Assembly: GCA_013178415.1 (NCBI GenBank)
Contig: JABLXA010000002.1
Location: 62,001-126,000, forward strand
DNA: 64,000 nucleotides
Source of the DNA: Bacillota bacterium
GTDB taxonomy: Bacteria > Bacillota > SHA-98 > Ch115
Direction of reading: 5' to 3'
Shown: positions 32,939 to 39,162 of the stretch, piece after piece
Position numbering within the stretch: position 1 is the first letter of the stretch
Layout of the letters: each line of letters opens with the position of its first letter
Notes under the pieces: model-generated
Told to the model about the DNA's origin: nothing
Databases searched by the model: none
The model's input: only the letters and a program-made list of their open reading frames with translations
Program-made: the position numbers and the translations under genes

Positions 32939-35929
32939 TCAAAGCTCGCGACGTACCTCTTCGATCTTGTACGCCTCGATGGCGTCATTCTCTTTGATGT
33001 CGTTGAAGTTCTCAATGCCTATGCCACATTCAAATCCTGCAAGGACCTCCCTGACATCTTCTTTGAATCTCTTGAGGGAGGCGATCTTGCCATCATAGAT
33101 GACCACATTGTCCCTGATCACCCTGACATTCGCGTCGCGGGTTATCTTGCCCTCTGAAACATATGCTCCAGCGACGGTCCCGACCTTGGGAACCTTGAAG
33201 GTGGCCCTTACCTCCGCCCTACCAACGAACACCTCCCGCTGTTCCGGCTCGAGCAGGCCTTCCATGGCCGCCTTGATATCATCTATGGCATCGTAAATGA
33301 TGCTGTATGTCCTGAGATCTATACCCTCACGTTCCGCCACTTTTCGCGCATTGGCGTCGGGACGAACCTGGAATCCAATTACAATAGCGTTGGATGCGGC
33401 GGCCAGCATGACATCACTTTCGGTGATGCCGCCCACGCCGCTATGGATTATATTCACCCTCACTTCTTCTGTTCCAAGTTGTCCGAAGGCCTGTTTCAAG
33501 GCTTCCACGGATCCCTGAACATCAGCTTTGAGGACAAGATTGAGTTCCTTGACCTCTCCTTCTTTGATATGTTCGAAGAGATCTTCCAGGCTGACCCTAT
33601 GAGGCGCCTGCATTTCCTCCGCGCGCCTCCGCTCCAGCCTGCGTTCAGCGAGTTCCTTCGCCATGTGATCGTCAGATACCACTGTCATTATACTTCCAGG
33701 CGTCGGGACATCCGAAAGCCCCAGAACTTCCACTGGCATCGAAGGACCGGCTTCTGTCACAGGCCTTCCCATATGGTCCAGCATAGCGCGGACCCGACCG
33801 TACACTTCGCCAGCGACTATGGCATCCCCGATCCGGAGTGTGCCTTTTTGGACCAGCACCGTCGCCACCGGGCCTCTTCCCTTATCGAGCTCAGATTCTA
33901 CCACAGTGCCTCTTGCCGGCCGGTCTGGGTTGGCCTTGAGTTCCCGCATTTCAGCCACCAGGAGTATCATCTCCAGCAAGTCTTCGATACCTTGCTTCTT
34001 GAGGGCAGACACCTCCACCATCACGGTGTCTCCACCCCATGCTTCCGGCACCAGTCCGAGCTCGCTCAACTGCTGCTTTACGCGATCTGGTTCGGCATTT
34101 GCCTTATCTATCTTGTTTATCGCTACTATTATGGGAACGCCAGCTGCCCTGGCGTGGTTGATCGCCTCTACCGTCTGCGGCATGACTCCATCATCAGCGG
34201 CGACTACCAGTATAGCGATATCTGTAACCTGCGCTCCCCTGGCTCTCATCTCAGTAAACGCCTCATGGCCCGGGGTATCCAGGAAAGTTATCTTCTTATC
34301 GTTGAGCTCTACCTGATAAGCCCCGATATGCTGGGTTATACCTCCGGCCTCTTGGGCTGTAACATTGGTGCTCCGAATGACATCCAGAAGTGATGTCTTT
34401 CCATGGTCCACGTGTCCCATTATGGTAACAACGGGTGGGCGCATCTTCAAGCTCTCCGGAGGATCAGGAAGATCTTCTATGCCGAACTCACGAGCTTCCT
34501 TCTCGCTGAGACGTTCTGCCTCGAAGCCATATTCGTCTGCAACAATGGATGCCGCATCATAATCTATTTCCTGGTTGATGGTGACCAACACGCCCATGCC
34601 CATCAATGTTTTGATGAGGTCAGAGGCAGCAATACCAAGTTTTTCAGCAAGATCCTTTACCGCTATGGATTCCGGCAAAGCAATCTTCTTCTCTCGCTGT
34701 GGCTTTTCTCGCCGCTTTGCGGGCTGTGGTGAGATATTCTCCTTTACGGCTTTACTACGCAAGAGCCTTTCCTCGACGACTCGCGATACCCTGTCTCCGA
34801 CGCGACCAAAGGATTTCTTGCCTTTACGCTGTTCCTTAGAGGCTGCTCCGCCCCTGGTCCTGGCCAGATCCGGCCTCAGCCGAGATATGGGTCTTGCAGT
34901 TTCACTCTTGACCGCAGGCGCGGAAATCTTCCCCTGCCTTTCACGCTCAATCGGCACCACTTTTGCCTGTTCTTGAGGCCTTACCTGGCTAGATGGCGCC
35001 GGCTTTCCTTGTGTTTCCTGTACCATGTCTTTCTCTTGCGTATCCTGCGCCTTGGCCTTTTCTTGTATCCCTTGACCAGGTCGGGCGTCAGGCTTCGGAG
35101 AGGGCTTGACGGCCGCAACCGTATCAGCCTTACCATGCTCATCAGAGGGCGCCACCACCTTGGTATCTTTCCCGGAGATGACTTCAGCGGGCGCTGCGCT
35201 CTTTGCCTCTACCCGGGCACTGGTCTCAGTCGGTATAGATCTCTTTGCCTCTATTCCTACGCTGGCCTCAGAAGATATTGTCTTCGTTGCTTCAGTTCGA
35301 GCCGCAACCCCGGGAGGCGCGGTGATCTTGCCAGCCTGCGCAGGGGGCGCTATTTGAGAAGCTGGCCTGCCAGGCTGTTCATGCTTCCACTGAACCTGAG
35401 TCCTTTGCTGAACCCCGCCCATCTCCGTATGAGACTGACGAATGGCAGTCTCCTGCACAGTTCTTAAGCCCTGCTGCGTATTAGTTGGCACCTCCTTGGA
35501 AAGACGATTGCTTGCTGCTCCCATTCCTGCTGGCCTGCCCGTCTCATGTGACTGATGCGAAGACATCCGGCTGACCGGCCGGCGGTCTACAGGCTTCGTC
35601 CGTCTTGGCCTCTGGGGGAGAATATCTGGCAGATTCCTTGCGAGCGGCCTGTCAGAAGCCAATGTCTTCATTATGGCACGCGCTCTATCATCTGCGGCAT
35701 CGGGTCGGGCCTCGGCCTTTTCCTCGCCCTTTTGGGACTGAGGCTTCTGTCTGACTGGAGCCCTACCTTCCATTTCCGCAAACCTATTCTTGATGAATCT
35801 GACCACATTATCCTCTAGGGCACTCATATGATTCTTCCCACGGACGCCAGAATCCTCCAGGAGCTGAAGAATCTCCTTACTATTCTTATCTAGCTCTCTC
35901 GCCAACTCATATACCCTTGTCTTACCCAT
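32939..35929 (-). CDS. infB: Translation initiation factor IF-2
   Basis: A 996-residue GTPase that places initiator tRNA on the 30S subunit. The C-terminal half is the conserved core: GTPase motifs [12 protein letters not shown] (about residue 495), DTPGHEAF and NKIDK, then domains II-IV. The N-terminal half starts with an IF2_N repeat ([20 protein letters not shown]), has a second near residue 420 ([20 protein letters not shown]), and between them ~330 residues of Pro/Ala/Gln/Lys-rich low complexity. The length is above the Bacillus protein (~716) but normal for clostridial forms. The ylxQ gene usual between rnpM and infB is absent. Confidence 0.97.
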
Positions 35930-35996
35930 CTATAAAACCACCCCCACCACAGCTCAGATCTCAATTTGTCTCTCTCTGATAACACCTCACTATCCA

Positions 35997-36347
35997 TCAT
36001 TTTTTGCCTGATTGGCTTTCAAGAAGGGCTTTGCGCCGCTCTATCTCGCGTCTTTCAGCCTCGCGCCTCGCTAGCTCCATTTTCAATTGCGAGACGACTT
36101 CAGGCGATAGATCGTCGCCTAGCGCTTTCTGAAAGCGCTTACCTGACAAGGCAGAGTTGATGCACGCCTCATTAGGGCATAAATATGCGCCCCTGCCAGC
36201 CAGTTTGCCTGAAGGATCCACCTTGAACTCACCCCCGGATGTCCTGACTATCCGGATCAATTCTTTTTTAGGCTTGACCTCCTGGCATCCCAGACACGTC
36301 CGCATCGGAATCTTCCGCTTTTTGGGCTGCGCCTGTCCTTTCGGCAT
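35997..36347 (-). CDS. rnpM: RNase P modulator RnpM (YlxR, DUF448)
   Basis: A 116-residue YlxR-family protein: PMRTCLGCQEVKPKKELIRI, then KVDPSGKLAGRGAYLCPNEA. Bacillus YlxR/RnpM binds and inhibits RNase P RNA. The C-terminus beyond residue ~85 is an added charged helix (ARREAERREIERRKALLE). The ATG at 36347 follows GGAGGATGCTCT. It lies between nusA and infB as in most Firmicutes. Confidence 0.93.
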   Translation of the reverse strand: MPKGQAQPKKRKIPMRTCLGCQEVKPKKELIRIVRTSGGEFKVDPSGKLAGRGAYLCPNEACINSALSGKRFQKALGDDLSPEVVSQLKMELARREAERREIERRKALLESQSGKK

Positions 36348-36389
36348 AGAGCATCCTCCACTCTGCAACTAATCTATATATTGGTAATA

Positions 36390-37856
36390 TCAGAAGTAGT
36401 CATCCTCTTCCTCATCCTCGAGCAACTCTTCACGCTTGCGCTTCATCTTAGGCCTGCGTTTCACCTTTTTTCTCGAAGCTTCCGCTTCATCTTCCTCTTC
36501 GAGGATTTTTGCGTCATCCGCTATTCCTTTTTTCTTCTGTTTCTTCTTTACCTTTGACTTCCCCTCATCCTCAGAATATGGGGTAGTGCCTTCCTTAGCT
36601 CCCTCTTCACCGACCACCTTTTCTGGCGCGCTTTGTTCCTCTTCTGACGCATTTTGCTCCTCTTGCTTCCCGGCACTTTCCTCTTCTAGCGCGCTCTGCT
36701 CATCTGGCGCATTCTGCTCCCCATGCTCCCCGGCCATCTCTTCTGGCGTCGCTACATCTTCCCGTTCTTCAACAACAGGTTCCGTGGATTTGGTAGCTTC
36801 CAATTCTTCTACCTTCGGCAGTTCGAGGGCCTGCGATTCGCTCTTGATATCGATCTTCCAGCCTGTGAGCTTGGCGGCCAACCTGGCGTTTTGACCCGCC
36901 CGACCTATGGCCAGGGATAACTGATTATCGGGCACGATCACCATCGCAGCCTTGACTACTGCATTTATCCTCACGCCGAGGACCTTGGCAGGACTAAGCG
37001 CGTTTGCGATATATTCCTCCGGAGATTCGCGCCATTCTACTACATCTATCTTTTCGCCTTTGAGCTCAGTCACAATCTTCTGCACCCGTATGCCCCTGGG
37101 CCCTACACACGCCCCTACAGGGTCCACATTGGGATCAGTGGCACTTACCGCCACTTTTGAACGTATCCCAGCTTCCCGGGCTATCTGCCTGATGACAACG
37201 ATTCCATCGTAAATCTCGGGCACCTCGAGCTCCAGGAGACGTTTCAAAAGTCCCGGATGGGTGCGGGAGACAACCACCTGGGGACCACGTGGCGTGTTCC
37301 GGACTTCCACTATATATACCTTCAGTCGCTCGCCTTGCTGGTACGATTCCTTCTGCATCTGTTCCGATAAAGGCATTACAGCCTCGACTCTGCCCAGATC
37401 AACTATCACATTCCTACCCTCATAGCGCTGCACGACGCCTGTGACTACATCGCCTTCGCGGTTGCTGTATTCCTCAAAGATGACCTCCCGCTCCGCCTCA
37501 CGAATCTTTTGAAGAACGACCTGCTTCGCAGTTTGAGCAGCAATGCGTCCGAAATCCCTCGGAGTTACCTCAGTTTCAATGACATCACCGGTGGCATAGT
37601 TCGGATTCACCGTCAATGCCTCGGCGAGAGATATTTCTGAACGTGGGTCCTTGACGTCATCCACGACATTTTTCCTCGCAAAAACCTGCACTGTACCGGA
37701 ATCAGGATCCACCTCGACCCTGACATTGTGGGCCGATCCGAAATTCCGCTTAAAAGCAGATACTAAGGCCGCCTCCAGAGCAGAAATCAGTATGTCTTTT
37801 TTGATACCTTTCTCTTTTTCCAGCTGCGCAAAGGCCTCTATGACGTCAAGGTTCAT
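36390..37856 (-). CDS. nusA: Transcription termination/antitermination factor NusA with long charged tail
   Basis: A 488-residue protein. Residues 1 to ~125 form the RNA polymerase-binding N-terminal domain (EAFAQLEKEKGIKKDILISA), followed by S1 (GDVVTGVVQRYEGRNVIVDL) and two KH domains (VGACVGPRGIRVQKIVTELK; SLAIGRAGQNARLAAKLTGW). After ~342 comes an unusual 146-residue tail: acidic, with an imperfect repeat (GEQNAPDEQSALEEESAG / EEQNASEEEQSAPEKVVG), then alternating Lys/Arg and Glu/Asp blocks (KVKKKQKKK, KVKRRPKMKRKREE) and EEEDDYF at the end. The ATG at 37856 has GGAGGGAG upstream and overlaps rimP by 11 bp. Confidence 0.96.
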   Translation of the reverse strand: MNLDVIEAFAQLEKEKGIKKDILISALEAALVSAFKRNFGSAHNVRVEVDPDSGTVQVFARKNVVDDVKDPRSEISLAEALTVNPNYATGDVIETEVTPRDFGRIAAQTAKQVVLQKIREAEREVIFEEYSNREGDVVTGVVQRYEGRNVIVDLGRVEAVMPLSEQMQKESYQQGERLKVYIVEVRNTPRGPQVVVSRTHPGLLKRLLELEVPEIYDGIVVIRQIAREAGIRSKVAVSATDPNVDPVGACVGPRGIRVQKIVTELKGEKIDVVEWRESPEEYIANALSPAKVLGVRINAVVKAAMVIVPDNQLSLAIGRAGQNARLAAKLTGWKIDIKSESQALELPKVEELEATKSTEPVVEEREDVATPEEMAGEHGEQNAPDEQSALEEESAGKQEEQNASEEEQSAPEKVVGEEGAKEGTTPYSEDEGKSKVKKKQKKKGIADDAKILEEEDEAEASRKKVKRRPKMKRKREELLEDEEEDDYF

Positions 37857-38328
37857 TGACTTCTCCCTCCACAACAAGACGTGCCTTGCTTATCCTATCT
37901 TTTGGAATATCCACAACCAAACCGTCTACATCCACCCTGACATTTCCGTCAGCAAGACCGAGAAGATGACCGATAAACTCCTTGCGACCGCCGATCTGCG
38001 AAAAAGTGTTGATGGCTACCATACGACCCTTATATTTGTCGAACTCTTCTTCTTTACGCAAGGGCTTCTCACCAGACGAGGAAACCTCGAGGATATAGCT
38101 TTGCGGGATCGGGTCCAGGCTATCCAGCTTCCTTCCGACTTCCTCGCTGATCTTTGTGCAGTCGTCAATAGAGACTCCACCCGGTTTATCCACATAGATC
38201 CTGAGGAGCCATTCGCCAGCCTCTTTTACATACAGAACGTCAACGAGCTCAAGCCCTTGATCCTCCACTATAGGAGCCGCAAGATCACTTACAATTCTCT
38301 CGATTTTCTCGATCCTTTCAGTCTTCAT
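37846..38328 (-). CDS. rimP: Ribosome maturation factor RimP
   Basis: A 160-residue 30S assembly factor. Blocks: LAAPIVEDQGLELVDVLYVK, WLLRIYVDKPGGVSIDDCTK and SYILEVSSSGEKPLRKEEEF. It heads the rimP-nusA-rnpM-infB operon behind a structured leader and promoter (38360-38489). Confidence 0.96.
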   Translation of the reverse strand: MKTERIEKIERIVSDLAAPIVEDQGLELVDVLYVKEAGEWLLRIYVDKPGGVSIDDCTKISEEVGRKLDSLDPIPQSYILEVSSSGEKPLRKEEEFDKYKGRMVAINTFSQIGGRKEFIGHLLGLADGNVRVDVDGLVVDIPKDRISKARLVVEGEVNEP

Positions 38329-38359
38329 CGTCTTGCCCCCTCTATACCGCGAACGTCAG

Positions 38360-38439
38360 GGTCCACAGACCTCTTATACACAAGATTAAGGAGTGGGTTT
38401 CCCCACTCCAACATTCAAGACAAGGTCTGCGGAAGGACC
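38360..38439 (-). other. Structured 5' leader of the rimP-nusA-infB operon
   Basis: The leader can fold as an outer stem (GGTCC and AGACCT on one side, at 38360-38372, with AGGTCT and GGACC at 38423-38439 on the other; asymmetric internal loop) that encloses a hairpin GGAGTGGG-gaaa-CCCACTCC (about 38390-38409). The inner stem has a GAAA tetraloop and is followed by TTAATCTTG, a poor U-run. I know of no matching riboswitch or protein-binding leader. Confidence 0.5.
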
Positions 38440-38449
38440 TTCAGTAGGA

Positions 38450-38489
38450 CTATACTCAAAGTATAGCACAATAAAAGCTCAAATTGCAA
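38450..38489 (-). promoter_or_regulatory. Promoter of the rimP operon with overlapping palindrome
   Basis: On the minus strand TTGCAA (38484-38489), an 18-bp spacer and TATACT (38460-38465). A perfect 7-bp inverted repeat CTATACT-ttg-AGTATAG (38450-38466) covers the -10 and the expected transcription start, as an operator would. Confidence 0.55.
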
Positions 38490-38505
38490 GTATCGCACGC
38501 CATTA

Positions 38506-39162
38506 TTATTGTCGTGCCGCCATTTGTTTCAGAATCTCCCAATACATCCTCGCCCTTTGTAGGGCCCCCCTAAATACTCCTCTTTTTTCTTCCTTCATCT
38601 GATGCGTGACATTCTCCAACGAAACGTACACCAGCCTGGCTCCGCGTGCCCGTGCATAATCAGTCAGCGCTATTTCAGAGCCAAACCTGGCATTGGATAT
38701 ATCCAGATCCTTGATGAAGGCTCTTCTCATGGCCCGTTGTCCAGATAGCGAAGGTGAGATCTTCAGGGCGAGGTCCGTTGCAGCCCTCCCACCTTTGAAT
38801 ACCCCTACCGTCATGTCCGCGCGGCCCTCTATCACCGGCAGTATAAGAGAGCGAATGTGAGATTCAGTAAGGCCGATGAGGTCGGCATCTAGAAACACCA
38901 CGATATCGCTGGAGGAAGCCCTAAGACCTTCCTGCATGGCCCCGCCCTTCCCAACGTTCCTGGCGAGCTCTATTACCTTCGCCCCGGCCCGCCTGGCATA
39001 GAGGGCTGTTTTATCAGTGGAACCATCGCTGACTACAGTTACATCATCTGTGACCTTCAGCGCTTCCATGACCACCTGTTGGATGGTGCTCTCTTCGTTA
39101 TATGCAGGTATCACTATCTGGATGCTAGGCGAGTTTTTGAGGACCTCAAGTTCCCCTTTCAT
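38506..39162 (-). CDS. Family 2 glycosyltransferase
   Basis: A 218-residue GT-A fold transferase. Nucleotide-sugar motifs: IQIVIPAYNEESTIQQVV, VVSDGSTDKTALYARRAG, NVGKGGAMQEGLRAS and the metal-binding FLDADL. Its middle (TVGVFKGGRAATDLALKISP) resembles glycosyltransferases acting on polyprenyl phosphate or phosphoglycerate acceptors, but the substrate cannot be assigned. The start overlaps the ispG stop by 4 bp, so it ends the ispG/dxr/uppS isoprenoid unit; a lipid-carrier substrate would fit that setting (inference). Confidence 0.85.
   Translation of the reverse strand: MKGELEVLKNSPSIQIVIPAYNEESTIQQVVMEALKVTDDVTVVSDGSTDKTALYARRAGAKVIELARNVGKGGAMQEGLRASSSDIVVFLDADLIGLTESHIRSLILPVIEGRADMTVGVFKGGRAATDLALKISPSLSGQRAMRRAFIKDLDISNARFGSEIALTDYARARGARLVYVSLENVTHQMKEEKRGVFRGALQRARMYWEILKQMAARQ

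Follow-up and report, generated by a model that had tools for sequence, protein, structure and literature searches.

The stretch of DNA analyzed, here called the window, comprises 64,000 nucleotides and carries a rimP-nusA-ylxR-infB operon on its minus strand. The 177 bases between the upstream glycosyltransferase gene and rimP were found to contain a promoter-like site, a hairpin and a broken U-tract. The features, all on the minus strand, are given below in the direction of transcription.

38506..39162, minus strand: gene for a family 2 glycosyltransferase, upstream of the operon and on the same strand
38484..38489, minus strand: -35-like hexamer TTGCAA; together with the -10 it matches 9 of 12 consensus positions, with an 18-nt spacer
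38460..38468, minus strand: extended -10, TGC TATACT
38450..38466, minus strand: 7-bp palindrome CTATACT-TTG-AGTATAG with a 3-nt spacer, overlapping the -10; window only
38423..38432, minus strand: 5' half of an outer stem, CCGCAGACCU; strong in the window only
38390..38409, minus strand: rimP-leader terminator hairpin GGAGUGGG-GAAA-CCCACUCC, 8 bp, kept in relatives
38376..38389, minus strand: interrupted U-tract UUAAUCUUGUGUAU after the hairpin; interrupted in relatives too
38363..38372, minus strand: 3' half of the outer stem, AGGUCUGUGG, downstream of the terminator; strong in the window only
37846..38328, minus strand: rimP (Pfam RimP_N and RimP C-terminal domain)
36390..37853, minus strand: nusA, the presumed regulator and regulated gene (Pfam NusA_N, S1 and KH_5)
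35997..36368, minus strand: ylxR (Pfam YlxR, scanned from 36344)
32939..35929, minus strand: infB (Pfam IF-2, IF2_N and GTP_EFTU)

A further gene upstream of the operon on the same strand is ispG-like as judged from its sequence. The ylxQ (L7Ae-like) gene is often located between ylxR and infB; here the interval between the two (35930..35996) leaves no room for it. The window NusA has a long low-complexity C-terminal tail past the KH region, acidic and then basic (36390..36800, minus strand). No tRNA or tmRNA genes were found within the 64-kb window, and the Rfam covariance models matched nothing in the window at the gathering score and nothing at E ≤ 10 in 38320..38520.

An earlier note on this DNA had described an inner 8-bp GAAA-capped hairpin, an outer long-range stem and a perfect 7-bp palindrome over the -10, and all three are present in the minus strand at the positions listed. 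The tail that follows the inner stem resembles that of a terminator but is weak and interrupted, with 5 U in the first 8 nucleotides, and the foot of the stem consists of a G-C pair followed by a U-U mismatch. Folding of the window transcript up to the hairpin gave two small local hairpins in addition to the terminator.

We compared leaders by reading the DNA that precedes each RimP match in the related genomes (59 of 61). A strict hairpin pattern was found in 54 of these 59 leaders, and a pattern allowing wobble and compensated cores in all 59. In a second set the core pattern was found in 102 of 103 further genomes, with nusA as the next gene in all 103; the last leader (L205) has a compensated core, GAGUGAGG/CCUCACUC, and was recognized by eye. 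A like hairpin thus precedes rimP in all 162 rimP-bearing genomes read in the phylum of the window, a count from which genomes without a RimP match are excluded (2 of 61 in the first set and 4 of 149 in the second). Second pattern matches starting with GGTGGC in L056 and L058 were excluded. The upstream reading covered these 59 and 103 genomes out of 386 with a RimP match. A plain DNA search gave matches to the hairpin region in six of the 61 related genomes (G001, G002, G003, G037, G060 and the window), in the first five each time just upstream of rimP.

The arms of the stem were highly conserved: AGUGGG/CCCACU was found in 150 of the 162 leaders, AGUGGG/CCCGCU in seven, GGUGGG/CCCACU in three and a fully compensated version in two, one of them L067 with GUGGC/GCCAC. 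The earlier note had suggested looking for covariation among rimP leaders, and the inner hairpin was found to carry compensatory changes. In the alignment of 59 rows, both partners vary in 5 of 10 pairs, with 24 such cells, values matched by 1 and 0 of 500 shuffles, respectively. Three core pairs are invariant in this alignment while the lower stem covaries; the rows are related, so that the covariation and the arm counts do not represent independent events. Of the three structures the hairpin alone exceeds local chance, and it is a real element.

Pairs 2–4 below AGUGGG were mostly A-U or G-U (147, 131 and 115 of the 162 leaders), and the longest U run was at most four in 160 of 162 tails, an interrupted U-tract being the rule. 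The window deviates from most of the set by the G-C at its stem foot and by its poor U-tract; since even by the standards of the family the tract UUAAUCUUGUGU is a poor one, termination in the window could be very weak. The distance from the hairpin to the start of the RimP domain had a median of 108 nt and a range of 30–360 nt in the 162 leaders. The T-n-T-T motif of NusG pausing occupied positions 7–10 of the tail in 75 of 162 leaders and occurred anywhere within positions 5–12 in 109 of 162, compared to 2987 of 8100 shuffles, which is suggestive only.

We also inspected 80 named loci, which were kept out of the 162 because at least 15 of them duplicate genomes counted before. The motif pattern was found in 68 of the 79 loci having enough upstream DNA. 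Of the 11 loci without it, four (L124, L131, L133 and L146) proved by eye to be near variants and six (L138, L140, L141, L142, L144 and L147) to have a different hairpin at the same place; in L145 no hairpin was seen in the mere 110 nt upstream. The differently spelled hairpins in L138, L140, L141, L142 and L147 belong to Oscillospiraceae-like or Clostridia loci.

A covariance model of the element gave matches in 59 of the 61 genomes, and the best-scoring places among those listed were rimP leaders. The two genomes without a match (G011 and G024) also lack a RimP match. That the leaders match is expected because the model was built from them, and the real test is the rest of the genome. The extra matches there were weaker, the exception being G049 with three near-identical repeats whose scores are close to that of its leader. 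In the seven stretches viewed, the extra matches lay in ordinary terminator-like hairpins or in the G049 repeats, and none was accepted as another leader. The G049 repeats (L148, L149 and L150) carry a hairpin like that of the rimP leader beside unrelated genes and perhaps represent a mobile element.

The promoter-like site of the window, TTGCAA-18-TATACT with TG preceding the -10 (38489..38460, minus strand), would start transcription near 38453 on the minus strand. Its TATACT is the most frequent -10 of the set (61 of 162 leaders). A first promoter score was reached by 156 of 162 leaders and by 336 of 810 shuffles, and because of this poor discrimination we changed to a stricter pattern of two hexamers, TTGnnn...TGnTAnnnT. 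Of the 162 leaders, 145 have the stricter pattern in the 150 nt preceding the hairpin, compared to 78 of 3240 shuffled segments, and 17 lack it; its median distance to the hairpin was 40 nt. This enrichment argues that the promoter is real. A CCUUC box lies close to the leader 5' end, about 9–17 nt past the -10 pattern, in 14 of the 16 leaders of the class to which the window belongs (L002–L017) and in none of the 146 outside it; the 16 rows are related, and in the window leader the box is displaced to position 23.

As the glycosyltransferase gene lies on the same strand, the hairpin could also end its transcripts. It is quite unlikely, however, that the hairpin is a mere 3' terminator of the upstream gene with no regulatory role for rimP-nusA, even though intrinsic terminators resemble one another. 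The promoter pattern that closely precedes the hairpin in 145 of 162 leaders argues against it. A crude frame test, moreover, gave the upstream frame the opposite orientation in 33 of 162 leaders, the same orientation in 110, a tie in 11 and too short a stretch in eight. The genes upstream also vary in genomes where the hairpin stays with nusA, as described below for G114 compared to G149 and G281.

The other two structures of the window did not share this conservation. Of 59 leaders, that of the window alone has a palindrome arm of at least 6 bp, and 39 of 59 leaders had no arm of at least 4 bp. The earlier note had considered the palindrome as a possible DNA operator, and in the window it is perfect (7 bp with a 3-nt spacer) and overlaps the -10. 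Conservation at the promoter, as expected of an operator, was not seen in the 59 leaders, and the common -10 TATACT itself makes up half of the palindrome. We therefore rejected the operator, and it is extremely improbable that some repressor binds there; the palindrome in the window is probably accidental.

The window leader as a whole folds better than its shuffles (z -2.75, with 2 of 200 shuffles equally good). The outer stem was compared to shuffles by duplex energy in 58 leaders; the window was the only one of 58 to reach z < -2, the mean over the 58 being +0.12. The outer stem was thus rejected as a conserved part, and the relatives lend no support to a function for it. Because its 3' half lies downstream of the hairpin, the outer stem could presumably act only once the polymerase is beyond the terminator. 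The 58 leaders shared no larger conserved structure and no antiterminator. Palindrome and outer stem occur in the window only and are therefore not the conserved signal; as judged from these comparisons, neither has a conserved role.

The conserved element is the rimP-leader described by Naville and Gautheret (2010; PMC2965389), who call it the most ubiquitous transcription attenuator of their set. Like the published element, the hairpin is a short terminator directly upstream of rimP-nusA-infB with a G-rich 5' arm, a C-rich 3' arm and a U-stretch, its GGG...CCC stem is conserved across species, and no antiterminator is visible (PMC2965389). The published consensus is GGGc(...)gCCC, whereas we found a near-invariant GUGGG(...)CCCAC; the 30–360 nt from hairpin to RimP domain compare to 4–130 nt from terminator to gene start, distances that were measured differently (PMC2965389). 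The hairpin of the window is thus an excellent, ordinary example of a known attenuator.

For the rimP-leader NusA was named the best candidate regulator (PMC2965389). A 2025 review describes B. subtilis NusA as autoregulated through NusA-stimulated termination in its 5' leader, and NusA as a general transcription factor essential in both E. coli and B. subtilis (PMC12288461). In S. agalactiae, termination in the rimP leader was mapped 31 nt past the start site and NusA feedback was proposed (PMC4448216). B. subtilis terminators that need NusA or NusG are characterized by a weak stem base and an interrupted U-tract (PMC8060035), and both traits were found in the 162-leader set. As in B. subtilis, the terminator of the window belongs to a nusA operon leader (PMC12288461).

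The earlier note had proposed a feedback site for NusA in a folded leader. The inner hairpin supports this proposal well, being a known rimP-leader terminator and being kept before nusA in three genomes without rimP; it would act as a weak terminator and not through a folded leader with an outer stem. The B. subtilis nusA leader terminator was reportedly described by Mondal et al. in 2016 as mediating NusA autoregulation with no antiterminator. The E. coli metY-nusA-infB operon is also reported to be repressed by its own NusA, but differs in its leader, which holds a tRNA gene.

The association with rimP itself could be examined in genomes that have lost this gene. A RimP search of 398 genomes left 12 without a match, and nusA was found in eight of them; the other four (G239, G252, G314 and G344) had no nusA match and are uninformative. 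In three genomes of two families (G114, G149 and G281) nusA is immediately preceded by the hairpin, and no rimP intervenes. The gene upstream is a tRNA synthetase gene in G114 and an MFS transporter gene in G149 and G281, and a gap at the G281 locus is unlikely because this assembly consists of two contigs. In three genomes of one genus (G024, G150 and G249) no leader was found before nusA in the stretches read, and nusA is preceded by glycosyltransferase and MgtC genes (by Pfam in G024, by likeness in the others). The control is therefore dispensable in this genus. In G265 some 450 nt of unassigned DNA separate the hairpin from nusA, and in G237 nusA lies at a contig edge. Altogether, in two of three informative lineages nusA retained the leader although rimP was lost. 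The hairpin before nusA in genomes without detectable rimP points to nusA, not rimP, as the regulated gene. The passages of Naville and Gautheret that we saw make no mention of leaders without rimP (PMC2965389), and no mention of a leader kept by nusA once rimP was lost was found in a search confined to open-licence papers, seen mostly as listings.

These genomes also bear on the alternative that the feedback comes not from NusA but from RimP, or from some other factor of ribosome assembly, binding to the leader. The element nearly always precedes rimP, whose product acts on the ribosome, and RimP feedback is mentioned as a hypothesis by Naville and Gautheret (PMC2965389). We regard it as very unlikely, since G114, G149 and G281 keep the hairpin right before nusA and since the work on B. 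subtilis implicates NusA (PMC12288461).

The element is thus very probably a rimP-leader, a weak intrinsic terminator close to the promoter that responds to NusA. RNA polymerase would initiate some 45 nt upstream of the hairpin. At high levels NusA would aid formation of the hairpin with its near-invariant GUGGG/CCCAC core, the polymerase would pause on the broken U-tract and transcripts would stop short of rimP; at low NusA levels the polymerase would read through into rimP-nusA-ylxR-infB. Such NusA-dependent termination in the leader would make an antiterminator unnecessary. Both termination at the window hairpin and its dependence on NusA are put forward by analogy with other bacteria, and NusA probably limits itself and its operon partners through a weak stop signal there.

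A NusA-dependent terminator alone leaves the fixed sequence of the stem core unexplained. The core may in addition be a sequence-specific site for a protein, e.g., the KH domains of NusA or RNA polymerase, which would add to the NusA-responsive terminator; we consider this conceivable, at somewhat less than even chances. The 5' arm AGUGGG was found in 157 of 162 leaders although any GC-rich stem could terminate, and in seven of 162 leaders a changed 3' arm gives a U-G wobble while the 5' arm is kept. Recognition of the sequence by a protein is also argued for by Naville and Gautheret (PMC2965389). However, compensated or replaced cores exist (L067 with GUGGC/GCCAC, and L205), and in several Oscillospiraceae-like loci the hairpin, as judged by eye, is a different one.

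Other bacteria are already known to use the mechanism, and the added insight here is modest: the constancy of the element, its position close to the promoter and the argument drawn from genomes that lost rimP. A NusA-dependent terminator that gauges NusA is among the simplest of feedback loops. Tentatively, the leader may be nusA's own gauge of NusA, persisting without rimP, with a frozen GUGGG/CCCAC core that is read sequence-specifically by NusA or NusA-bound polymerase. If true, this core would set the leader apart from ordinary terminators, in which the sequence of the stem is free to vary. The fixed stem core poses a directly testable question: whether the sequence of the stem is read, or only its strength.
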